IMG/VR virus record: IMGVR_UViG_3300043357_000064
Location: 64,001-88,991 of that record
Origin: a virus
Reading direction: 5' to 3' (one strand)
Length of the DNA stretch: 24,991 nt
Numbering within the stretch: position 1 is the stretch's first letter; each line of letters starts with the position of its first letter. A program made the position numbers and the translations under genes. Positions 5,610 through 24,991 of this stretch are shown here, one piece after another. The notes under the pieces were generated by a model. It did not search any database and was not told the origin of the DNA. It was given only the letters and a program-made list of their open reading frames with translations.

Positions 5610-6676
5610 GCGGCGACCGCCTGGTATGCGAGCAGGTCGAACAGGTCGGTTGCATACAGCGATCCGAGATAGTCGCGGACCGGCCCGACCCATGGCGTGT
5701 TCGTGGCGACGCCGAGAACGACAGCGGCGATCACCGGGTTGACGACGTCGGCGATCTGCAGGAACTGCTTGCTGCGGCTGCCCTGCCACGGATAGTCGAC
5801 GGGGAATCCGTTGAGCAGTCCTGCTTCGGCCGGGGTCAACTCGCGGACTCGTCCGTCCGGCGTGGCAAGTTTCCATGAGCGGGTCGAGCCGGTGAGGCAC
5901 CACGACGGACCGTCGGCCGAGAAGTAGTTGCCGCCGGACGTCTTCCTCTCGCCGCGGGTGTTGACGCGCGTACCGGCCGGCAGGTCGAGGACCGACGCCA
6001 TCGTGTGCCGTGGCAGTTCGGCGCCGTTCCATCCGGCGTCGTGCACGGTGACCCGTGAAGGGCCGTAGCGGCGGCCGTAGACGAACGTCCGGACCCGCTT
6101 CGACGGCAGGCCGAAATCGGTCGCCGAGATCGTGCAGACGTCGACCCACTCCCAGCCCGCGGAGTACGCCTCGGCGGTAATGTCCTCCCAGATCGGGGCG
6201 ACGGCGGGCACCTGCTCGCAGACGAACCATTCGAGATCCGGTGCGGTCAGAATCCAGCGCGCGGCTTCGAGCACGAGCTGCGACCGCGGATCGGCGGTGC
6301 GGTGGGGCAGCTCGTTCCAATCGCATCCGCAGCCCATGCCGAAGCACGTGATCGCGTCGAGGATCTCCTGCATGTCGCCGCGGCCGAGACGTAGACCGCC
6401 GTCGGAGAATCCGGGGCACGGCGGCGTGATCGCGGCACCGATCACGCCGCGATGCCGGGCCGGAGCCACGTCGCGGATGTCGTGCTGCACGCGCACGAAA
6501 CCCGCCGCGCGAGCTGTCGCGCACGCATCCTCGTCCAGTTCGACGCCGACCATGCCGGGCAGGCCGAGGATCCGGGCGCCCATAGCCATACCGCCGGGAC
6601 CAGCACAAATATCAACAACAGAGCCAGCACCCGCAACGACGCGGCGAGTCGGGACGGTTGCTCCGGCGGTCTTCAC
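5606..6676 (-). CDS. C5-cytosine DNA methyltransferase
   Basis: A 356-aa protein with the C5-methyltransferase motifs in order: motif I VVDICAGPGGMAMG (about 20-33, SAM binding), motif IV TPPCPGFSDGG with catalytic Cys87, motif VI EQV (154-156, usually ENV), motif VIII FGLPSKRVRTFVYG, a target-recognition stretch, and a motif X-like DVVNPVIAAVVLG near the C-terminus. It methylates cytosine C5 in a short DNA site, probably to protect phage DNA from host restriction. No restriction endonuclease gene lies next to it, so it looks like an orphan. GTG 6676 is the assigned start; the SD is weak and a 25-bp gap separates it from the RusA-like gene. The specificity cannot be read from sequence. Confidence 0.9.
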   Translation of the reverse strand: MKTAGATVPTRRVVAGAGSVVDICAGPGGMAMGARILGLPGMVGVELDEDACATARAAGFVRVQHDIRDVAPARHRGVIGAAITPPCPGFSDGGLRLGRGDMQEILDAITCFGMGCGCDWNELPHRTADPRSQLVLEAARWILTAPDLEWFVCEQVPAVAPIWEDITAEAYSAGWEWVDVCTISATDFGLPSKRVRTFVYGRRYGPSRVTVHDAGWNGAELPRHTMASVLDLPAGTRVNTRGERKTSGGNYFSADGPSWCLTGSTRSWKLATPDGRVRELTPAEAGLLNGFPVDYPWQGSRSKQFLQIADVVNPVIAAVVLGVATNTPWVGPVRDYLGSLYATDLFDLLAYQAVAA

Positions 6677-6701: not shown

Positions 6702-7160
6702 TCAAGACGACCTCGCCGGTACCGGGTCGAGCGTTACGCGCCCGCGCGGGAACGCCGCCGTCTCGATCGACAGCGATCCGTACTGGACGTGCCGGAACGA
6801 GTCGTCGATGACGAGGCCGTAGCCGACCGCAGATCCACGCTTCGGGCCGATGGCGCCGTCAACAACGGCTTTGATCGTCTCTGCCATGTTCATGACCGTG
6901 TCGACGGGAGGCTTCGCCCACCGGAACGCGATATCGAGCCGGACCAGCATCAGACCGGTCGGGAGCTTCGGCCGCACGGCGCAGGCGGCCTGATATGCGG
7001 TCTCGCGCCAAGCTTTGACCCGTCGGCCTTGCGCCTGCGGGTGGCCGCTGCGGTTGTTACTCGTGATCCAGTCCCCGTTGGACGGCACGACGATCGTCCA
7101 TGTCCGGTCTGTCTGGGTGGTGGCTGTAGAGCCACCACCCGAAACCTCGACGGCAGTCAC
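6702..7160 (-). CDS. RusA-like Holliday junction resolvase
   Basis: A 152-aa protein. The C-terminal half contains PPVDTVMNMAETIKAVVDGA followed by GLVIDDSFRHVQYG, matching the RusA pattern 'D..N..K.v.DaL....viiDD' in which the aspartates bind Mg2+. The N-terminus (VVPSNGDWITSNNRSGH) fits the RusA start 'P.sqN..'. RusA nicks four-way junctions symmetrically; here it would complete the RecE/RecT-like recombination set 3-4 kb upstream in the operon. GTG 7160 forms a GTGA overlap. Assignment rests on motif spacing. Confidence 0.7.
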   Translation of the reverse strand: MTAVEVSGGGSTATTQTDRTWTIVVPSNGDWITSNNRSGHPQAQGRRVKAWRETAYQAACAVRPKLPTGLMLVRLDIAFRWAKPPVDTVMNMAETIKAVVDGAIGPKRGSAVGYGLVIDDSFRHVQYGSLSIETAAFPRGRVTLDPVPARSS

Positions 7161-7411
7161 GACTCACGCGTCCACGGTTTACCGGTCAACGCGATCGTCT
7201 GACCCAACCGGCCCGCACCCGCCCCGAGCCGGACGATCCAGCCCCGGGATTCGAGGATCGTCAAATACCCCTGGACTGTCGGGAGGCTTTTGCCCAGGGA
7301 TGCGGCCAGGTATTCGACGGTGGGGTTCAAGTCGTTGGTGTCGACGTAGGCGATAACCGCTTCGAGCACGCGGACGACGGGCGGTTTCAAGCCCTGGACG
7401 GTGGTGTTCAC
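7157..7411 (-). CDS. Small winged-helix DNA-binding protein
   Basis: An 84-aa protein from GTG 7411. Residues 7-60 (LKPPVVRVLEAVIAYVDTNDLNPTVEYLAASLGKSLPTVQGYLTILESRGWI) form a MarR/LexA-type winged helix with a helix-turn-helix at 'EYLAASLGKSLPTVQGYL'. It has no effector domain. It directly follows a second winged-helix gene, with which it may have arisen by duplication. A role as transcription regulator is inferred. Confidence 0.7.
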   Translation of the reverse strand: MNTTVQGLKPPVVRVLEAVIAYVDTNDLNPTVEYLAASLGKSLPTVQGYLTILESRGWIVRLGAGAGRLGQTIALTGKPWTRES

Positions 7412-9140: not shown

Positions 9141-9718
9141 CAGGCTGCCGCCTCGTCCAGAACGGGCGCTGACGTCGTGACCCGCCGGCCGCCGGGCGTC
9201 AACAGCACCCAGCGGTCGGCCTTGTCGATCAGCACCGGGAAGGCGGCCGGGTCGTCGGTCGACTTGAGCAGCCATCCGCCGAACTTGCGGGCCCACTTCG
9301 GCTTCGCGTGCACGGCACCGTGGCAGCCGGTGGTCCCAGACCCACAGAGCAAGATCAAGTTAGGCAGCGAGTTGTCGCCACCCTGAGACCTCAGCTTGCG
9401 GTGGTGAATGGAGTAGTCGACTCCACGCCGGTCACCGATACCACCGCCACAGAGCAGGCAGTAGTACATGTCCCTTTCGAGGACGGCGTCACGCGTCGCC
9501 GGGTCCGGATCGGTCGATTCCCGCTTCGTCGCTGCCTTGGCCGCCGGCCGAGCCGGGAGCTTGATGCCCCCGGCTGCGGCGAGCTTCGGTGTCCTCGGCG
9601 TGAACGTGGACGCCGGGTGGTCGATGCCCTGTGCCGCGAGCGCTTCCAGCCGCTTCTTGGAGAACTGAGCGAGCGGCTTGCGGGGTGCCGACATGCGGGC
9701 GGAACGGGTGAGGGTCAT
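9140..9718 (-). CDS. HNH endonuclease
   Basis: A 192-aa protein with a basic, Ala/Pro-rich first half (1-70) and a C-terminal HNH nuclease: CLLCGGG (first zinc pair), SIHHRKLRSQGGDNSLPNLILLC (catalytic HH with the conserved N of the motif) and GCHGAVH (final H, second zinc pair). HNH enzymes cut or nick DNA with one metal ion. Its place next to the RecT-like and RecE-like genes suggests a role in phage recombination or host DNA attack; it may also be a free-standing homing-type enzyme. 4-nt and 1-nt overlaps tie it to its neighbours. Confidence 0.88.
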   Translation of the reverse strand: MTLTRSARMSAPRKPLAQFSKKRLEALAAQGIDHPASTFTPRTPKLAAAGGIKLPARPAAKAATKRESTDPDPATRDAVLERDMYYCLLCGGGIGDRRGVDYSIHHRKLRSQGGDNSLPNLILLCGSGTTGCHGAVHAKPKWARKFGGWLLKSTDDPAAFPVLIDKADRWVLLTPGGRRVTTSAPVLDEAAA

Positions 9719-10662
9719 GACGCGGTCGCAGGCGGCTCGGACTGGGCGATGTAGCCCTCGAGCGCGTGACCGAGGCGGGCCAGCTCGACGTACGACAGAT
9801 CCGTCAGAGGGACCTCGCGGCCGGTCTTCTCGGCGATGTACTCGGCCTTCTTCTCGTCGTCGAAGTCGGTCTGCTTGAACAGCGTCTCGACCTTGTCGAT
9901 CTCGATGGCGGCCCGGCTCGGCAGGCCGTCTGAGGTGGTCTCCTCGACGACGACCGCGTCCGTGATCTCGCCGCTGCCACCTTCGGGGTCGACGACCGGA
10001 CGCTTCTGCTGCGCCTGGATCTCCGCGATCGTGACGCGCGCCCGGGCAACCGGCTCGGCCTCGTCCTCGCTGTCGCGGAGTTCCTCGGCGTTGTACGGCA
10101 TCGCGTGCAGAACGTCGGAGGCGACGAGACGGCAGATCTCGCCGGTTGCGCGGGCGACGAGCATCGTCTTCGGCTGCTTCTTCCACTCGGCCTTGCCGAG
10201 CAGGCCGAGACCTTCGGCACGCTTGAGATCCCACTCGATCGTCTGCCAGTCGGCGTCGGTCTCGTCGGCGCGGCGACCACGCATCACGCACTTCTCGTTC
10301 GTCGACTCGACCAACTTCACCTTGTGCCCATGGGACTGCAACAGCGCCCGCTGTGCGTGTGCCCGGAGCGCCGGGGTGCCCTGGATGACGTCGATCGAGC
10401 GGAGGGTCGCCATCGGCTTCATGCCGAGTTCCTGGCCGGCGAGGATCGCAGCGGTGATGTCGTCGGGCTTGCCACGTAGCGACAGCGGCACGAACGAGGT
10501 CTTGGCCAGCGACACGGCGATTGCCCGCGCCTGCCGGGCCTCATACGCCCACAGGACCAGTTCGGAGGTTTCGGCGCCGATCGGCACGAACTGCTGCATC
10601 GGGTCGGGCTGCTGGACTGGCGTTGACGGGATGGTGATCTGATCGATTGCGGTGCTGGTCAT
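9715..10662 (-). CDS. RecT-like single-strand annealing protein
   Basis: A 315-aa protein. Residues 40-150 contain EARQARAIAVSLAKTSFVPLSLRGKPDDITAAILAGQELGMKPMATLRSIDVIQGTPALRAHAQRALL, the pattern of RecT-type annealing proteins in actinophages ('a..i..s.lvP..yrg...n...ai..g.elG..pm.al..i.vi.GkP.l.a..m.al'). DWQTIEWDLKRAEGLGL and the W/MLVARATGEICRLVASDVLHAMPYN segment complete the core; the last 100 residues are acidic. It binds ssDNA produced by an exonuclease and anneals it to homologous DNA. The RecE-like nuclease gene overlaps it by 4 nt, the usual arrangement. Family inferred from motif and context. Confidence 0.82.
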   Translation of the reverse strand: MTSTAIDQITIPSTPVQQPDPMQQFVPIGAETSELVLWAYEARQARAIAVSLAKTSFVPLSLRGKPDDITAAILAGQELGMKPMATLRSIDVIQGTPALRAHAQRALLQSHGHKVKLVESTNEKCVMRGRRADETDADWQTIEWDLKRAEGLGLLGKAEWKKQPKTMLVARATGEICRLVASDVLHAMPYNAEELRDSEDEAEPVARARVTIAEIQAQQKRPVVDPEGGSGEITDAVVVEETTSDGLPSRAAIEIDKVETLFKQTDFDDEKKAEYIAEKTGREVPLTDLSYVELARLGHALEGYIAQSEPPATAS

Positions 10663-14001: not shown

Positions 14002-15372
14002 CTACTGGTTCTCGGCGCCCTGCTCGACGTGGATTCGCCGGGCTTCCGCCCACAGGTCTTTGATGAGTTGGCGAGCGGCGAGACGCATCGCCCGCGCCTT
14101 CTGGTGGCCTAGGCGCAGCGGTTCGCCGGCCTTGGCCTTGCACTGCGGGCAGTCCTCGACGTGCAGCGTCTCGGCGTACTGGCGACGTGCGTCGTCGTAG
14201 ACCACGCGGTAGGGCGAGCAGACGCACTCGTCGGCGTGCTTGATCCAGCCGTTGTCGTCGGCGATGCAGGTCTCGGCGGTCTTGCCACCGACGCCCTTGA
14301 GGCATGAGTCGATGACCAGCCAGGACCGCTTACGGGCGTCCGGGTTATGCCGGACCGTCTCGCCACGGCGACGCCTCGGTGCTGCGCCGCCGTTCGCTCC
14401 CGGCATCCAACCCGCGTACGAGATCAGCTCGGACACCATGCGCGGTCGCGACGGCTCGACTGTGCCGTCTTCCAGCACGATCTCCGGCCGGATATACGGA
14501 TCACCGAGGGCGGCGAGCAGCCTGGCACCCTGCTTTTCGCCGACGCTTCGCTGCGCCGCCATCCACGGACCGAGCGGGTGCTCGCGCATCAGCTTCTGGA
14601 GAAGCTTGATCGTCTGCGCCTCGACGTCGGCGTACATCGCGACCGTGGCCGTCAACAGCTTCACGGCCGGGTCATCTTCGGTCAGCGCGTAGCCACGCTC
14701 TTCGCCATCCGCATCGGCTTCCAGTTCGGCGACGGTCGCGACTTTGCCGGACGTGATCCGCTCGTCGGCTGGTCCGCCACGGGTAAGCGTGCGCAGCCGG
14801 TTCTCGCTCGCGGTCCGCATCGCCTCGGTGTCGTCGAGGGTCTTGGCGACGAAGGCGAGTTGCCGCCCAGCAGGAAACGGGACCGGATCAGCCAGCGCGG
14901 CCACCATGGGTGCCGGATGGAAGATGGCTGGCTGAGCCGGTCCCACGCCAGCAGCGATCGGATCATTGGTGACGTGGTGATCCTGGCCGCTGACTGCTTG
15001 CCCCCCGCTCGACGCGCACGTAATTGGTGCCGCCGCGGCTTTGGTCGGGCGGGGAGTTTGGTTCACGCCCGACGTGTGTCCATTGGGGGACGTTGACCTC
15101 CTGGTCGGGCGTGAAGTTGTAGCCCCATCCGACGTGATAGATCTTGGTGTCGGACAGATCGTGGTCAGATGGGGTTGCTGATCCACGTCCAGCGCTGGAC
15201 GGTTAGGGGACGCGAGGTCAATGGCTGGACGGGAAAGGAAAGCCTCGCCCGGCGCGGGAAGTTTTGGCGGCGATCCAGCCATGGCCGACCGAGGTGCTTG
15301 GGTCCCGCCCGACGGGGACGTGCTGGGTGTCGTTTCGGGTGTAGTCGGACGGGAAATCTCTGTGATAGTCAT
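14002..15372 (-). CDS. IS110 transposase-related protein lacking the catalytic domain
   Basis: A 456-aa protein. Residues 1-155 are low-complexity, rich in Pro, Ser, Thr and Gly with loosely repeated segments. Residues 160-456 resemble the C-terminal (Transposase_20) half of IS110-family transposases: a helix-hairpin-helix PWMAAQRSVGEKQGARLLAALGDP (about 269-292), SELISYAGWMPG (314-325), the basic RKRSWLVIDSCLKGVGG (347-363), a Cys cluster (CVC near 383, CPQC near 408) and the final HQKARAMRLAARQLIKDLWAEARR. The N-terminal RuvC-like DEDD nuclease domain of IS110 is absent, and no IS ends or flanking repeats are seen. It therefore looks like a phage protein using a transposase-derived DNA-binding module. 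It ends in TAG, 71 bp before the next gene. Confidence 0.68.
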   Translation of the reverse strand: MTITEISRPTTPETTPSTSPSGGTQAPRSAMAGSPPKLPAPGEAFLSRPAIDLASPNRPALDVDQQPHLTTICPTPRSITSDGATTSRPTRRSTSPNGHTSGVNQTPRPTKAAAAPITCASSGGQAVSGQDHHVTNDPIAAGVGPAQPAIFHPAPMVAALADPVPFPAGRQLAFVAKTLDDTEAMRTASENRLRTLTRGGPADERITSGKVATVAELEADADGEERGYALTEDDPAVKLLTATVAMYADVEAQTIKLLQKLMREHPLGPWMAAQRSVGEKQGARLLAALGDPYIRPEIVLEDGTVEPSRPRMVSELISYAGWMPGANGGAAPRRRRGETVRHNPDARKRSWLVIDSCLKGVGGKTAETCIADDNGWIKHADECVCSPYRVVYDDARRQYAETLHVEDCPQCKAKAGEPLRLGHQKARAMRLAARQLIKDLWAEARRIHVEQGAENQ

Positions 15373-15899
15373 GCCGCTACCGCCTCAGGGGCGAAGAACG
15401 CGTGCAGAACATCGGCGGAAAGGTCACGGACTCGAGTGACGCCATCGGTGACCATCTGTTCGGCGAGCGCGTCCCAGTTGACGCCGTGCTCCGCCAGGAT
15501 GCTCGCGTTGAAGGTGTACGACGACGCGATCGATCGGCACTGTTCGACGGTCAGGTCACCGGTACGGCCCCAGTCGAGGCCGTTGTAGGTGAACCGACCG
15601 GAGAGCGCGCGCTCCAGGCGATCGGCTGCGGTTAGTTGGTTCCGGCGGCGAGCCGAGTTCCGGGCGCCGACCTTCCGGCCAGTCGTCTCGGCCTGCACCG
15701 ATGGGCGAACCGGAGAAACCCGGATCCGGCCGAGGTGGAGGCGAACCCAGTTCCGGAGCAGCGCGAACGCCACGTCCTTGAGTTGCTCGGTCGTCATGTT
15801 TTCGAGCACCTTGCCGGCGATATCGCCGGGATCGGACAGGCCGGTCTCGTCGGCGATGCGCTCAACCTCGGCCGCAAGATCGAAATCGTCGGCCGTCAT
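15369..15899 (-). CDS. Hypothetical early protein
   Basis: A 176-aa, mostly helical protein: DDFDLAAEVERIADETGLSDPGDIAGKVLENM, LLRNWVRLHLGRIRVSP, a basic patch GRKVGARNSARRRNQLTAADRLERAL, then LDWGRTGDLTVEQCRSIASSY. The basic patch suggests DNA or RNA contact. No family recognised. ATG 15899, ATGA overlaps on both sides; third gene of the early transcript. Confidence 0.7.
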   Translation of the reverse strand: MTADDFDLAAEVERIADETGLSDPGDIAGKVLENMTTEQLKDVAFALLRNWVRLHLGRIRVSPVRPSVQAETTGRKVGARNSARRRNQLTAADRLERALSGRFTYNGLDWGRTGDLTVEQCRSIASSYTFNASILAEHGVNWDALAEQMVTDGVTRVRDLSADVLHAFFAPEAVAA

Positions 15900-16132
15900 G
15901 CTGCACGACCCGCTGCACTCATCGAACGATTCGAAGACTTGGCGGCTTGCGCCTTGGCGGACCGGGCCTTGATGAAGCGTTCAACCTCGGTGTCGGCAAC
16001 GCGCGGGCGCGGGCGCTTGCCGGTGCCGACGTTGGTCCAGTCGAGTTCTTCCGCCCAGATCAGTTCGCGGACGGACTGGACATGAATCGCGAGGCGACAG
16101 GCCACCTCGTCGAGTTTGAGCATCTGCGTCAT
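15896..16132 (-). CDS. Excisionase-like helix-turn-helix protein
   Basis: A 78-aa protein, second gene of the early operon. LKLDEVACRLAIHVQSVRELIWAEELDWTNVGTGKRPRPRVADTEVERFI is the pattern of small MerR/Xis-type winged helices ('yl...evA..l.vs...v..li..g.l....vG....r.rv....l..fi'). Xis proteins bind and bend attachment-site DNA so the integrase excises the prophage; the size and place opposite the integrase fit that role. A plain repressor role cannot be excluded. The last 20 residues are Ala/Ser-rich. Confidence 0.76.
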   Translation of the reverse strand: MTQMLKLDEVACRLAIHVQSVRELIWAEELDWTNVGTGKRPRPRVADTEVERFIKARSAKAQAAKSSNRSMSAAGRAA

Positions 16133-16383
16133 GACGTTGCTCCTTCCGGCCATAGCGCGTCGACAGTGGATTCGAGGGTTCGAGCGGCGGCGCGGGCCTG
16201 CGGCAGCAGCGGACTGGTCTTGCCTTTGATCCAGCGGTTGACCGTGTTCCGGTCGACCTTCATCAGGTCGGCCCGCTCCTGCTCGTTGAATGCGCCTTTG
16301 ATTGCGCACAACTCGATGAACAGGTCTTTTGCCAGCGGAACGGTCGTCAGTGCTGCATTGGAATCGCGTCTTGCTCCAACCAT
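16129..16383 (-). CDS. Cro-like HTH regulator, first gene of the leftward early operon
   Basis: An 84-aa protein. Residues 30-63 (GAFNEQERADLMKVDRNTVNRWIKGKTSPLLPQ) form an XRE-type helix-turn-helix. It is read away from the repressor gene across a 235-bp operator region, the place of Cro in lambda-like switches. ATG 16383 is preferred because TACATT lies six bases upstream and TTGTGC 17 bases before that, giving a leaderless transcript; no SD is present. The start codon lies inside a 9-bp palindrome and another copy of the half-site lies in the fifth-to-eighth codon region, so the protein or the repressor probably controls this promoter. Confidence 0.82.
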   Translation of the reverse strand: MVGARRDSNAALTTVPLAKDLFIELCAIKGAFNEQERADLMKVDRNTVNRWIKGKTSPLLPQARAAARTLESTVDALWPEGATS

Positions 16384-16418
16384 GCAGCAAATGTAGATGC
16401 TGCATGATTGCCGCACAA
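16381..16418 (-). promoter_or_regulatory. Leftward early promoter with overlapping palindromic operator
   Basis: On the minus strand: -35 TTGTGC (16418-16413), 17-nt spacer, -10 TACATT (16395-16390), then six bases to ATG 16383. The inverted repeat CATGCAGCA (16381-16389) / TGCTGCATG (16398-16406), with an 8-bp centre, covers the -10 and the start codon, so a bound dimer would block transcription. The half-site ATGCAGCA also occurs at 16553-16560 and, inverted, at 16351-16358. Confidence 0.78.
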
Positions 16419-16551
16419 GGACCGTTGACGCGTTGCACCCGTTCGGATGAATCGCAAGCAGTCGCAAGGACCGGTGCGCGGAGAGAAAACTCCAGAAGCT
16501 GCAGCGGCGCAAGAATGACGAGTTGATTTTGCAAGTTGCATCTGACCTGCG

Positions 16552-16618
16552 GATGCAGCATCAATGTCGCATACCGTTGTCTATGCTCGTGACATCAATG
16601 TCGCGTACAGTCGGCGTT
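16552..16618 (+). promoter_or_regulatory. Operator and -10 region of the repressor gene
   Basis: Contains GATGCAGCATC (16552-16562), a palindrome with the same half-site as the leftward operator, two direct copies of CATCAATGTCGC (16559-16570 and 16593-16604, 34 bp apart), the second inside the palindrome GACAT-CA-ATGTC (16591-16602), and TACAGT (16606-16611) as -10, seven bases before GTG 16619. No good -35 is seen, as expected for a promoter helped by a bound regulator. Confidence 0.65.
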
Positions 16619-17017
16619 GTGCGAACTGCTGCCAGCCCGCCGAACGACTGGGCGCGCCTCATCGACGATCTGGTCAGAAGACTCGGATCGATCAAGAAGC
16701 TTGTCGACGTCACCGGATTCGACCGCAACACCATCCGGCGCTGGCGGACGGGCGAATCGGCGAACGTCACGGCCGAAACGATCAGGATCCTCGCCGATGG
16801 CACGGGCATCGACTACGACGAAGCATCCCGTGCCGCACTCGGCGCACAGCAGCAGATGCGCGCCGATGCCGACGCGGTCGTCCGCAGAATCGAAGAGTCG
16901 GACGCATCAGACGCGACGAAGCGGGACCTCATCGACCTGGTCCGCGACAAGCGCCGCGAGTCGGAGGCTTCGATTCTGCGAGATGTCGACGTATTCCTGA
17001 GGACGCGGACGACCTAG
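16619..17017 (+). CDS. Immunity repressor-like HTH protein
   Basis: A 132-aa protein. Residues 7-65 contain DWARLIDDLVRRLGSIKKLVDVTGFDRNTIRRWRTGESANVTAETIRILADGTGI, an XRE/CI-type HTH with recognition helix near DRNTIRRW. The second half (QQQMRADADAVVRRIEESDASDATKRDLIDLVRDKRRE) is a long charged helix for oligomerisation; there is no LexA/CI protease domain, so induction must differ from lambda. The start is uncertain: GTG 16619 fits a leaderless transcript from TACAGT; ATG 16598 would add seven residues but lies upstream of that -10. Neither has an SD. Divergence from the Cro-like gene and adjacency to the integrase (9 bp) support a lysogeny repressor. Confidence 0.8.
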   Translation: MRTAASPPNDWARLIDDLVRRLGSIKKLVDVTGFDRNTIRRWRTGESANVTAETIRILADGTGIDYDEASRAALGAQQQMRADADAVVRRIEESDASDATKRDLIDLVRDKRRESEASILRDVDVFLRTRTT

Positions 17018-17026
17018 GAACCGCCG

Positions 17027-18217
17027 ATGCCCTGGGTGCGCAAACTTCCGTCCGGCCTATGGGCCGCGACCGTCCGTCTACCGACCGGTAAAAAGATCAC
17101 GAGGAGCTTCCCGCTCAAGGGATCCGCCGACAAGTGGGCCAACTCCCAAGTCGAGGGCCTCCGCAAAGGCGACTGGATCGACCCGCGCGCCGGAGAACTG
17201 TCGATCACCGACTGGTACGAGCGATGTAGAGACTCACGCCACCTGGAGAAGGCCAGCCGGGCACGCGACGAATCCCACTGGCGCCGACACGTCGAGCCGC
17301 AGTGGGCGGACGTCCCGATCGGTGCCGTCCTAAAGACCGACGTGTCCGCATGGGTCGTACGGATGCAGCAGAAGGACAAGCTCGGTGCGGCGACGATCGA
17401 AGCGGCAGTCGGCGTCCTGCGTGGACTCCTCGAGCAGGCGGTCGACGCGAAGCTGATCCACGCGAACCCAGTCCGCGGCGTGAGCGTTCCGCGACGTGAC
17501 GCCCATGTCGATCGCGTGCTCGGCCCCGATGAAGCCGATGCCCTCCTCGATGCCCTGGAGCGGCACAACCCGAAATACCCGGCTGCTCGACTCATGTGTG
17601 AGCTGATGCTCGATACAGGGATGCGATGGGAAGAGGTCGCCGCAGTCGACACTGACCACATCGAGCAGCGCCGCAAACTGATTCACGTCGGCCCGGTCAT
17701 GGAACGGGACGGAACGGTCCGCCCGTATCCGAAGAGTCCGGCCGGCGAACGGCCTCTCCCGGTTGGGGATGACCTTTGGCCGCAGTTGTGGAAGCTCGTT
17801 GGGACCGCCAAGCGAGGCGGTCTGCTTTTCACGGCACCGCAGGGCGGCTCGCTGCTCTACCCGACGTGGCGGTCGCGAGTCTGGCTGCCCGCGATCCACG
17901 GCCGCGTCGAGTACATCCGACGCCAGGGCCACAAGGCGAAGGACGCGATGCCCGGCGCCGGATTGGTGGATCCACAACCGACACCGCACGATCTCCGACA
18001 CACCTACGGAACCCGCCTCGCGGACGCCGGCGTGCCACCGCACGAGATGATGCGGCTGATGGGTCACGAACATCTGACATCGCTGGAGCGCTATCTGCAC
18101 GCGGGCGAGGCGCGGTTCGACAACGCACGCGAGGCGATCAGGAAAGCGAAGATTCCGCGACAGGGAACGCAGTCCGGCTCATCAAAAGCTGCTGGCTCAC
18201 CGGCGGCTCACGGCTAG
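17027..18217 (+). CDS. int: Tyrosine integrase
   Basis: A 396-aa site-specific recombinase. The N-terminus (PWVRKLPSGLWAATVRLPTGKK, residues 2-23) is a three-strand arm-binding domain; residues about 55-150 are the helical core-binding domain; the catalytic domain follows with Arg200 (DTGMRWEEV), His321 and Arg324 (TPHDLRHTYGT), His347 (LMGHEH) and nucleophile Tyr356 (LERYLHA). All key residues are present. It cuts and joins DNA at the att core, here the tRNA-Pro 3' fragment 57 bp downstream. The start has AGGAA eight bases upstream. The 3' end of the gene contains one pair of GGCTCAC arm-type repeats, so gene and att site overlap. It is likely co-transcribed with the repressor. Confidence 0.96.
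   Translation: MPWVRKLPSGLWAATVRLPTGKKITRSFPLKGSADKWANSQVEGLRKGDWIDPRAGELSITDWYERCRDSRHLEKASRARDESHWRRHVEPQWADVPIGAVLKTDVSAWVVRMQQKDKLGAATIEAAVGVLRGLLEQAVDAKLIHANPVRGVSVPRRDAHVDRVLGPDEADALLDALERHNPKYPAARLMCELMLDTGMRWEEVAAVDTDHIEQRRKLIHVGPVMERDGTVRPYPKSPAGERPLPVGDDLWPQLWKLVGTAKRGGLLFTAPQGGSLLYPTWRSRVWLPAIHGRVEYIRRQGHKAKDAMPGAGLVDPQPTPHDLRHTYGTRLADAGVPPHEMMRLMGHEHLTSLERYLHAGEARFDNAREAIRKAKIPRQGTQSGSSKAAGSPAAHG
18194..18213 (+). repeat. Paired GGCTCAC repeat, likely integrase arm site (int side)
   Basis: GGCTCAC occurs at 18194-18200 and 18205-18211, one helical turn (11 bp) apart, inside the last codons of int. The 20-bp unit matches 18425-18444 at 18 of 20 positions in the same orientation. 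Paired short direct repeats on both sides of the core are the usual layout of tyrosine-integrase arm sites. Confidence 0.65.
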
Positions 18218-18232
18218 TCGGGAAGATCCAAA

Positions 18233-18267
18233 AAGGGCCAGGTCAGATTGTCTCTGGCCTGGCCCTT
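18233..18267 (-). terminator. Strong bidirectional-type terminator beside att
   Basis: A 15-bp stem (18233-18247 with 18253-18267, one G-U pair) with a 5-nt loop TTGTC. On the minus strand it is followed by TTTTT (18230-18234 region), the classic intrinsic form, which suits the end of a tRNA-Pro transcript; from the plus side it would also end the repressor-int transcript. Confidence 0.85.
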
Positions 18268-18273
18268 CGCCTG

Positions 18274-18318
18274 TCGGGGTGGCCGGATTCGAACCGACGA
18301 CCTCTTCGTCCCGAACGA
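18274..18318 (-). other. attP: attachment core: 3' part of a tRNA-Pro(CGG) gene
   Basis: On the minus strand this reads as tRNA-Pro from the anticodon loop to the discriminator base: loop TTCGGGA (anticodon CGG, 18309-18315), 3' anticodon strand CGAAG, variable AGGTC, T-arm GTCGG-TTCGAAT-CCGGC, acceptor strand CACCCCG and A18274. The 5' anticodon strand fails to pair at 18319, where the likeness to tRNA ends, and no 5' half follows. Such a fragment next to an integrase is the usual att core of elements that insert in tRNA genes and restore them. Flanking arm-type repeats on both sides indicate attP instead of attL or attR. The exact crossover cannot be read here. Confidence 0.88.
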
Positions 18319-18424
18319 TGAAACGCCGGTGGTGTCTAGCTGCACCGATGCAGCAGAGCCCTGGTCAGATGTGCTGATTTGGCAAGTCGACGTAAGCCCT
18401 AACATGCCTTCGTATCAAGATCAC

Positions 18425-18444
18425 GGCTCACCAGTGGCTCACGG
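18425..18444 (+). repeat. Paired GGCTCAC repeat, likely integrase arm site (distal side)
   Basis: GGCTCAC at 18425-18431 and 18436-18442, again 11 bp apart, 107 bp beyond the core and overlapping the stop of the small membrane-protein gene. It differs from the int-side unit at only two positions of 20. If real, it is the second arm of attP. Confidence 0.62.
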
Positions 18445-18649
18445 GCTTGGCTGTCGCACGGAACTGGAGGGTCGACTCATCGATGTTCGCCGGCCGCGGG
18501 ACTCGCACGCGTGCCGTGCTCCGGCCGAGCAGGAATGCCTTCTGGATGTCGTTCAGTCTGCGGTATTTCGGGAGCGCGCCCATCGCAACGCCGATCAACG
18601 CGATGAAGATTGCCAAAGCCGCACTGGCCATGGATAGCCGTGGTATCAC
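18428..18649 (-). CDS. Small single-pass membrane protein beside att
   Basis: A 73-aa protein from GTG 18649, supported by GGGAGG six bases upstream. Residues 7-25 (MASAALAIFIALIGVAMGAL) are a membrane helix; the rest (PKYRRLNDIQKAFLLGRSTARVRVPRP) is basic and probably cytoplasmic. It ends inside the distal arm repeat. In the integrated state it would be the last gene of the element at the end away from int. A possible promoter (TTACCA at 18782-18777, 16-nt spacer, TATCGT at 18760-18755) lies about 105 bp upstream. Such att-proximal membrane proteins are often lysogeny genes; function unknown. Confidence 0.72.
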   Translation of the reverse strand: MIPRLSMASAALAIFIALIGVAMGALPKYRRLNDIQKAFLLGRSTARVRVPRPANIDESTLQFRATAKPVSHW

Positions 18650-18847
18650 AAGATCCCTCCCTGAGGGTCAGTCAGCGCGACGACGTGAGGTAGTCGGTCT
18701 GCGTGATGTGCTGACGTCTGGGCGGGCCGCCGTGCACGATGGATTGAAGATGCAACGATAGCGGACTATCTGTGTCTGGTAACAGTCCGAATGGTCATTT
18801 ACGGGACACTGTCTGTCGCTTCACGTGATTCAAATAGAACGTACAGT

Positions 18848-24204: not shown

Positions 24205-24991
24205 GCTGCGTCTCCTTCGTCAAATAGGGAAGCCTGACCGCGCACCTCGACGGGCGGCTTCGGTAGCCGCAGCACCCTTGCTCGCTGCGCCGGGTCAGAG
24301 GTACGCCACCGCGCGATCCGGCAGTAGTCGGCGGACATGTCGTTCGAGATGCCGATCCGGCCGAGCGCCGACGCGACGAGGGCAGTAGTTCCGGTCCCGC
24401 CGAATGGGTCAAGAACGACGCCATCGGCCGGGCACCATCCCCGGATGAACCAGTCCGGCCATGCGCTCGGAAACGCTGCGTGGTGGTCAACGCCGAGATG
24501 TTCCGGCACGATCAGCGGTTCGGTCGCGACCTCACGCACCGAGCCGGGCAGTTTACCCTTGGGATTCGGCGAAACAAGGTGGTCTTTCCATCCGGTGTTG
24601 TCGGTGGCGGAGATGTGCCGCTGCGTCTTATTGCTGGTGCCGAGCTTGCGCGGTGCGTCCCGGCGTGCCGGCTCTTCCCGGATCTGATCGATGTCGGCGA
24701 AATAGCGCGGCTGCATCGTCAGGTGCACCCAGTCTTCATGCGAGCGTCGTACGCGATCCCCGACCGACTCGGGTAGACCGTTGGGCTTGTCCCAAATCAC
24801 CACAGCCCGGACCGTCAGGCCCAGTTCGTCAAGGCACGCAATCCGGTATCGCTCCGGGATGAGCAGCAGCGTCTTGCGCGGGTAGCCCATCCCGGAGCGG
24901 TCAAGCGCACGGAGGCCGAAACGCCGCGCCTCCGACTTCTCATCAGTACCGGTCGACGCGCCCTTAGCGCTGTAGTACGAGTCGCCGAGGT
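24201..24991 (-). CDS. DNA methyltransferase, N4-C/N6-A type (5' end beyond window)
   Basis: The frame is open to the right edge; upstream of the internal ATG 24890 it continues with LGDSYYSAKGASTG and SEARRFGLRALDRSG, so the true start lies outside. The visible C-terminal part has RKTLLLIPERYRIACLDELGLTVRAVVIWDKPNGLP, the WVHLTMQPRYFAD segment, and motif I at the end: GVVLDPFGGTGTTALVASALGRIGI, followed by DYCRIARWR. Motif I after the catalytic DPPY region (expected beyond the edge) is the beta-class order. The enzyme methylates the amino group of adenine or cytosine in a short site; no endonuclease is seen, so it probably protects the phage genome or changes host methylation. Confidence 0.92.
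   Translation of the reverse strand, partial: LGDSYYSAKGASTGTDEKSEARRFGLRALDRSGMGYPRKTLLLIPERYRIACLDELGLTVRAVVIWDKPNGLPESVGDRVRRSHEDWVHLTMQPRYFADIDQIREEPARRDAPRKLGTSNKTQRHISATDNTGWKDHLVSPNPKGKLPGSVREVATEPLIVPEHLGVDHHAAFPSAWPDWFIRGWCPADGVVLDPFGGTGTTALVASALGRIGISNDMSADYCRIARWRTSDPAQRARVLRLPKPPVEVRGQASLFDEGDAA

Follow-up and report, generated by a model that had tools for sequence, protein, structure and literature searches.

Do the two divergently oriented HTH regulators of an uncultured phage share one operator, or does each read its own? The question arises from a window of 24,991 nucleotides (positions 64,001 to 88,991 of the IMG/VR record IMGVR_UViG_3300043357_000064), the whole stretch of DNA analyzed here, for which an earlier note had described an immunity switch with leaderless promoters and two operator types. 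The switch itself, with divergent leaderless or near-leaderless promoters, was supported by gene content, the presence of an attP, the lack of Shine-Dalgarno sequences, and the positions of the sites, and the region most likely functions as an immunity switch. The notion of distinct operators for the two regulators did not fare as well (see below).

The window is part of a complete temperate phage genome

The whole record comprises 88,991 bp, and its first 127 bases are identical to its last 127 (window 24865-24991), which indicates a circular molecule of ∼88.9 kb. Of nine large proteins sampled from other stretches, five matched families of tape measure protein, terminase large subunit, portal, head maturation protease, and minor tail protein; two matched only families without known function, and two had no match. 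Integrase, attP, and virion genes, the constituents of a temperate phage, were all found and, together with the terminal overlap, identify the record as a complete temperate phage genome. Distant relatives of two of its genes (that for the integrase and the one at window 14002-15372) occur mainly in phages of Mycobacterium and Gordonia; the phage is an uncultured temperate actinophage. That the right part of the window might be host chromosome was ruled out by the 127-bp circular overlap and is also contradicted by a tRNA fragment there that lacks its 5′ half. The right arm of the phage (window 19302-22124) encodes GntR-like and XRE-family regulators, a type common in actinobacterial chromosomes and plasmids. 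Repeats were also observed in L005, where GGCATGGATGC or its complement occurs four times in steps of ∼24-38 bp (7157-7250; iteron-like), a short repeat array contains the 24-bp TCCATGTCACCCCGCGAAGTGACA (840-902), and another array holds many copies of CGAACAG (9235-9745).

Two divergent regulators flank a single intergenic region

A rightward pair of genes for a repressor-like protein and a tyrosine integrase lies opposite a leftward early operon that starts with the genes for a Cro-like and an excisionase-like protein (Table 1). As in a CI/Cro-type switch, the two HTH regulators are divergent with one intergenic region between them, and repeats, which are putative operators, overlap both predicted promoters. 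The labels repressor (rightward) and Cro-like (leftward) we infer from gene position. The repressor-like protein matched PHROG 638 (transcriptional regulator; E 1.4e-7), and its structure model (mean pLDDT 80) places the recognition helix at 43-51. The Cro-like protein matched Pfam HTH_3 (E 2e-4), just under the gathering score, and the Pfam match of the repressor-like protein was under the gathering score as well; the single-sequence model of the Cro-like protein was weak (mean pLDDT 63; helices 34-41 and 45-53). The excisionase-like protein was assigned to PHROG 66 (“excisionase and transcriptional regulator”; E 6e-5) and the integrase to Pfam Phage_integrase (E 4e-20) and PHROG 1 (integrase; E 2e-52). 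Also in the early operon, window 14002-15372 encodes a PHROG 4285 (“transposase”) protein, which has distant homologs in 83 actinophage records (all <60% identity, chiefly Mycobacterium phages) and no relative in an IMG/VR search.

Close relatives of the switch proteins were not recovered. The Cro-like protein had no relative in IMG/VR or INPHARED phages, the repressor none in IMG/VR, phages, or GTDB genomes, and the integrase none in IMG/VR or GTDB and only distant ones, all of <60% identity, in phages. The DNA of 16330-16660 did not match phages. Fold searches with the repressor model returned only general HTH matches, none with an E up to 0.001, and a sequence search of solved structures gave no convincing match for either regulator; these searches thus do not place the repressor. 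Neither the phage nor its regulators were found in the searched collections, and the literature covered dealt with kinds of switches.

Table 1. Features of the switch region and the attachment site (window coordinates)
Feature	Position	Strand	Remark
Excisionase-like HTH gene, 78 aa	15896-16132	−	Overlaps the end of the Cro-like gene
Cro-like HTH gene, 84 aa	16129-16383	−	Opens the leftward early operon
ATGCAGCA copy	16351-16358	−	Within the Cro-like coding sequence, codons 9-11
26-bp palindrome CATGCAGCA-N8-TGCTGCATG	16381-16406		Built from the ATGCAGCA copies at 16382 and 16398
ATGCAGCA copy	16382-16389	+	Left palindrome arm, between −10 and start codon of the Cro-like gene
−10-like TACATT, Cro-like promoter (predicted)	16390-16395	−	ATG starts 7 nt downstream
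ATGCAGCA copy	16398-16405	−	Right palindrome arm, in the −35/−10 spacer of the Cro-like promoter
−35-like TTGTGC, Cro-like promoter (predicted)	16413-16418	−	3/6 match; 17-bp spacer
Short palindrome GATGCAGCATC	16552-16562		Holds the fourth ATGCAGCA (16553-16560); upstream edge of the repressor promoter
CATCAATGTCGC copy 1	16559-16570	+	Covers the −35 position of the repressor promoter
−10-like TATGCT, repressor promoter (predicted)	16582-16587	+	ATG at 16598, 11 nt after TATGCT
CATCAATGTCGC copy 2	16593-16604	+	Covers +1 and repressor start codon; 34 bp from copy 1
Repressor-like HTH gene, 139 aa	16598-17017	+	N-terminal HTH, then helical C-terminal region
Tyrosine integrase gene, 396 aa	17027-18217	+	Immediately 3′ of the repressor gene
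Putative attP arm-type repeat 1, GGCTCACCGGCGGCTCACGG	18194-18213	+	20 bp
attP core, 3′ 46 nt of tRNA-Pro(CGG)	18273-18318	−	By alignment to two ARAGORN tRNA-Pro(CGG) genes
ATGCAGCA copy	18348-18355	+	Between attP core and arm-type repeat 2
Putative attP arm-type repeat 2	18425-18444	+	90% identical to repeat 1

Repeats on the divergent promoters exceed chance by their combination

The four copies of ATGCAGCA described in the earlier note were found at 16351 (−), 16382 (+), 16398 (−), and 16553 (+). This inventory had to be corrected in that the 16351 copy is coding and the window contains three more copies, at 10592, 17363 (in the int gene), and 18348 (beside attP); an eighth is located at record position 6087. 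The palindrome with 9-bp arms over −10 and start codon of the Cro-like gene was recovered at 16381-16406. Read on the minus strand, it includes part of the spacer that follows TTGTGC (16418-16413), then the −10-like TACATT (16395-16390), and finally the start codon (16383-16381). The further copy said to lie in a palindrome before the repressor gene is that within GATGCAGCATC (16552-16562). Whereas the copies themselves are thus real, calling them half-sites is an assumption, each 8-mer being near a 9-bp pseudo-palindrome (ATGC-A-GCAT). The 16-bp spacing of the palindrome halves differs from that of a classical single-dimer operator. The only other exact occurrence of the palindrome in IMG/VR (ATGCAGCAGCGCCCGCTGCTGCAT, contig L002) lies beside unrelated genes, including, as judged from the translations, a tail-type gene, and was dismissed as a chance hairpin.

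Seven copies of ATGCAGCA in the window compare with 0.33 expected from dinucleotide shuffles, and eight in the 88,991-bp record (four of them in the switch) with the ∼2-4 that Markov models of orders 2-5, with the sites themselves included, predict. ATGCAGCA is the only 8-mer of the window with four non-overlapping copies inside 203 bp. Comparable 8-mer clusters arose in three of 60 order-3 random windows (∼1 in 20); finding one within 25 kb is only slightly unusual and, by itself, modest evidence. The other repeats are not exceptional either when taken singly. In 5000 dinucleotide shuffles of 16351-16618, a 12-mer direct repeat arose in 24, a fourfold 8-mer in 8, and a 9-bp-arm palindrome in 121. 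When the record was divided into 1310 overlapping 268-bp tiles, the corresponding counts were 64, 16, and 61 (overlapping 8-mers were also taken for these single-feature counts). It could thus be argued, from the presence of each repeat class in other tiles and from the clusters in random windows, that the repeats are products of chance or coding by-products without a regulatory role. However, all three kinds occurred together in just one of the 1310 tiles, the one at window 16349, namely in the divergent promoter region, and the positions occupied by the copies are those of −10, spacer, start codon, and −35. Because the cluster sits on the divergent promoter region and all three kinds co-occur there, the repeat evidence is strong, and an origin by chance is considered very improbable.

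The divergent transcripts are predicted to be leaderless or nearly so

A consensus promoter scan found no promoter; the elements listed in Table 1 are predictions, and for the repressor promoter, no good −35 is present (best 2/6). When nine genes were scanned for Shine-Dalgarno sequences in the 24 bases preceding the start codon, anti-Shine-Dalgarno pairing of the Cro-like (+1.2 kcal/mol) and the repressor gene (+0.3 kcal/mol) was the weakest of all nine. The excisionase-like gene has a strong Shine-Dalgarno sequence (−11.6 kcal/mol). The missing Shine-Dalgarno sequence in both divergent genes fits a Cro-like mRNA predicted to be leaderless, starting at or next to the ATG, and a repressor mRNA predicted to be near-leaderless. 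Leaderless promoters, as previously proposed for both genes, are better supported for the Cro-like gene; with a predicted leader of ∼3-5 nt and its poor −35, the repressor gene fits the term less well. Because RTG starts are common in mycobacteria, leaderless starts would be ordinary for hosts of that kind: RTG at the transcript start is reported for 1098 of 4979 M. tuberculosis starts (PMC4633059). The base immediately before the Cro-like ATG is C, which is favored at position −1 of mycobacterial starts (PMC4633059).

Near-identical recognition helices favor a shared operator

The separate pair of CATCAATGTCGC repeats overlapping the repressor promoter is present (16559 and 16593), and a dyad (GACAT-CA-ATGTC; 16591-16602) is located at the second copy. 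Within the window, L003, and L004, CATCAATGTCGC was found at the repressor promoter only, and the early promoter is devoid of any partner copy. The pair looks like a candidate site for shut-off or self-control of the repressor, and may serve either regulator, or neither. The second copy (GACATCAATGTCG; GACAT-CA-ATGTCG) resembles the repressor half-site of BPs, CGACATATGTCG (PMC4557955). This likeness may be coincidence because the repressor of phage Angel is not similar to the present one, and it serves as no more than a lead.

Alternatively, the repressor and the Cro-like protein could each have an operator of their own, ATGCAGCA for one of them and CATCAATGTCGC for the other. Two clearly unlike types of repeat at separate places, the confinement of CATCAATGTCGC to the repressor promoter, and, despite the dissimilar Angel repressor, the resemblance to the BPs half-site all speak for such a division of labor. 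Yet, the recognition helix is nearly identical in the two proteins: DRNTIRRW in one and DRNTVNRW in the other, which have D, R, N, T, and R residues in common (DRNT-V/I-x-RW; positions taken from the structure models of both regulators). In pairwise blastp, the two proteins aligned with an E of 9e-5 over 46 columns, and they rank second among the 66 pairs formed by 12 regulators (three of the present switch, the other HTH protein of the window, and eight from Angel, Brujita, and Spooky). Because their recognition helices are nearly identical, overlapping specificity and a shared ATGCAGCA operator are favored. The proposal that the regulators bind distinct operators, unlike in lambda, was not supported; it is unproven and somewhat disfavored, and a split between ATGCAGCA and CATCAATGTCGC appears possible but doubtful. 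Conversely, a purely shared operator does not explain the CATCAATGTCGC pair, which is absent from the early promoter. Neither arrangement would be a new principle, since both phage 186 and Staphylococcus aureus phage phi11 provide precedents: Apl of 186 recognizes sequences of its own, located in the switch and at att (PMC7498355), and in phi11 neither repressor bound all three operators (PMC3991615).

A tRNA-derived attP lies downstream of the integrase gene

The tRNA fragment at the attP extends from the 3′ end to past the anticodon loop and is nearly identical to that part of tRNA-Pro(CGG). It is matched by 54 records; of three such stretches examined, two carry tRNA-Pro(CGG) genes recognized by ARAGORN, and the third, on the Rhodococcus qingshengii plasmid pDJL3, is a bare tRNA fragment adjoining an integrase gene. 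A 3′ fragment of a tRNA gene without the 5′ half, flanked by 20-bp repeats, is as expected for an attP with arm sites. An Rfam search of 15800-18800 (E up to 1) gave no match. As int directly follows the repressor gene, integration-dependent immunity of the BPs/Brujita type was considered and rejected, attP being located downstream of int and outside the repressor gene.

Between the attP core and the arm-type repeat, the dyad GCTGCA-CCGA-TGCAGC (window 18338-18355) holds a copy of ATGCAGCA. Regarding this copy as a site for a regulator or for excision is speculative. If the protein reading ATGCAGCA also acted at the attachment site, it would link the switch with excision or integration, in the manner of Apl of phage 186. 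With copies in int (17363) and at attP (18348), only two are left elsewhere in the record outside the switch. However, the attP copy is single, in contrast to the direct repeats at 10-11 bp described for Apl (PMC7498355), a separate excisionase-like gene comes after the Cro-like gene, and chance would account for ∼2-4 copies in the record. An additional role at the attachment site is, thus, regarded as unlikely.

A shared-operator model of the switch

The preferred reading, to which we assign a probability of roughly 0.6, is that of a lysis-lysogeny switch, belonging to a complete temperate actinophage, in which both regulators use the same ATGCAGCA operator. The early promoter bears three copies of ATGCAGCA, and a fourth borders the repressor promoter on its upstream side; CATCAATGTCGC lies on −35 and start of the repressor promoter. 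Against this reading count the poor −35 of the repressor promoter, the empty promoter scan, the spacing of the palindrome halves, the lack of a CATCAATGTCGC partner at the early promoter, and the Pfam matches of both regulators under the gathering scores. In the lysogen, repressor bound to the ATGCAGCA palindrome would block the early promoter. The Cro-like protein would bind the same ATGCAGCA sites, thereby tuning its own promoter and, through the copy at 16553, perhaps along with the CATCAATGTCGC pair, shutting off repressor synthesis. Because the Cro-like mRNA is predicted to start at or next to the ATG, a protein occupying the palindrome would cover polymerase and start codon together. A more elaborate version, a mutual-repression switch in which the paralogous HTH proteins split ATGCAGCA and CATCAATGTCGC between them, (near-)leaderless transcription lets them mask the start codons too, and the ATGCAGCA reader touches attP, is judged quite improbable.

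Although real and well formed, the region represents an ordinary, known type of switch and is one more example of a large class. It offers a compact and well-delimited switch with clear candidate operators; the searched collections contained no close relative of its regulators or of the integrase. Should proteins with a shared helix indeed differ in the sites that they use, or in the strength with which they use common sites, it would be a simple test case for how paralogous HTH proteins divide operators.

Comparison with known switches

The stoperator type of cluster A phages, with repressor sites genome-wide, is unlike the present switch, where four of eight ATGCAGCA copies in 88,991 bp are in the switch itself. 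BPs and Angel (cluster G) resemble it in that the repressor gene is followed by the integrase gene and is divergent from a small early regulator, with two divergent promoters; the Angel map shows this arrangement. The BPs operator is described as sitting within the early promoter, flanked by its −10 and −35 (PMC4557955). They differ in having attP within the repressor gene; as attP is outside the repressor gene here, no integration-dependent truncation would occur. With Angel as the cluster G stand-in for BPs, no relation was detectable between the repressor and Angel gp33 (E 27) or between the Cro-like protein and Angel gp34 (E 5.6).

Gordonia phage Spooky likewise combines integrase, repressor, and a divergent early operon with Cro, and also carries, nearby, a homolog of the gene at window 14002-15372 (31% identity). 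It represents a more complex version, with an antirepressor ahead of Cro and an extra HTH gene. The Spooky repressor matched the present one weakly (E 0.004); Spooky Cro and the Cro-like protein did not pair at E 0.05, and the Spooky repressor and Cro did not match each other. In the CI/Apl switch of coliphage 186 (P2-like), the promoters are face to face, whereas the genes and predicted promoters diverge here. Apl sites are direct repeats spaced by 10-11 bp, that is, one helical turn (PMC7498355); the present ATGCAGCA copies have mixed orientation and other spacings, with a single copy near attP.

Lambda CI/Cro at OR is like the present switch in its two divergent HTH regulators and the repeated operators over both promoters. 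The two differ in operator sequence, spacing, and protein size, and leaderless or near-leaderless transcripts are predicted for both genes of the present switch. The reading of a shared operator by both regulators, favored here, is a further feature that would link it to lambda.
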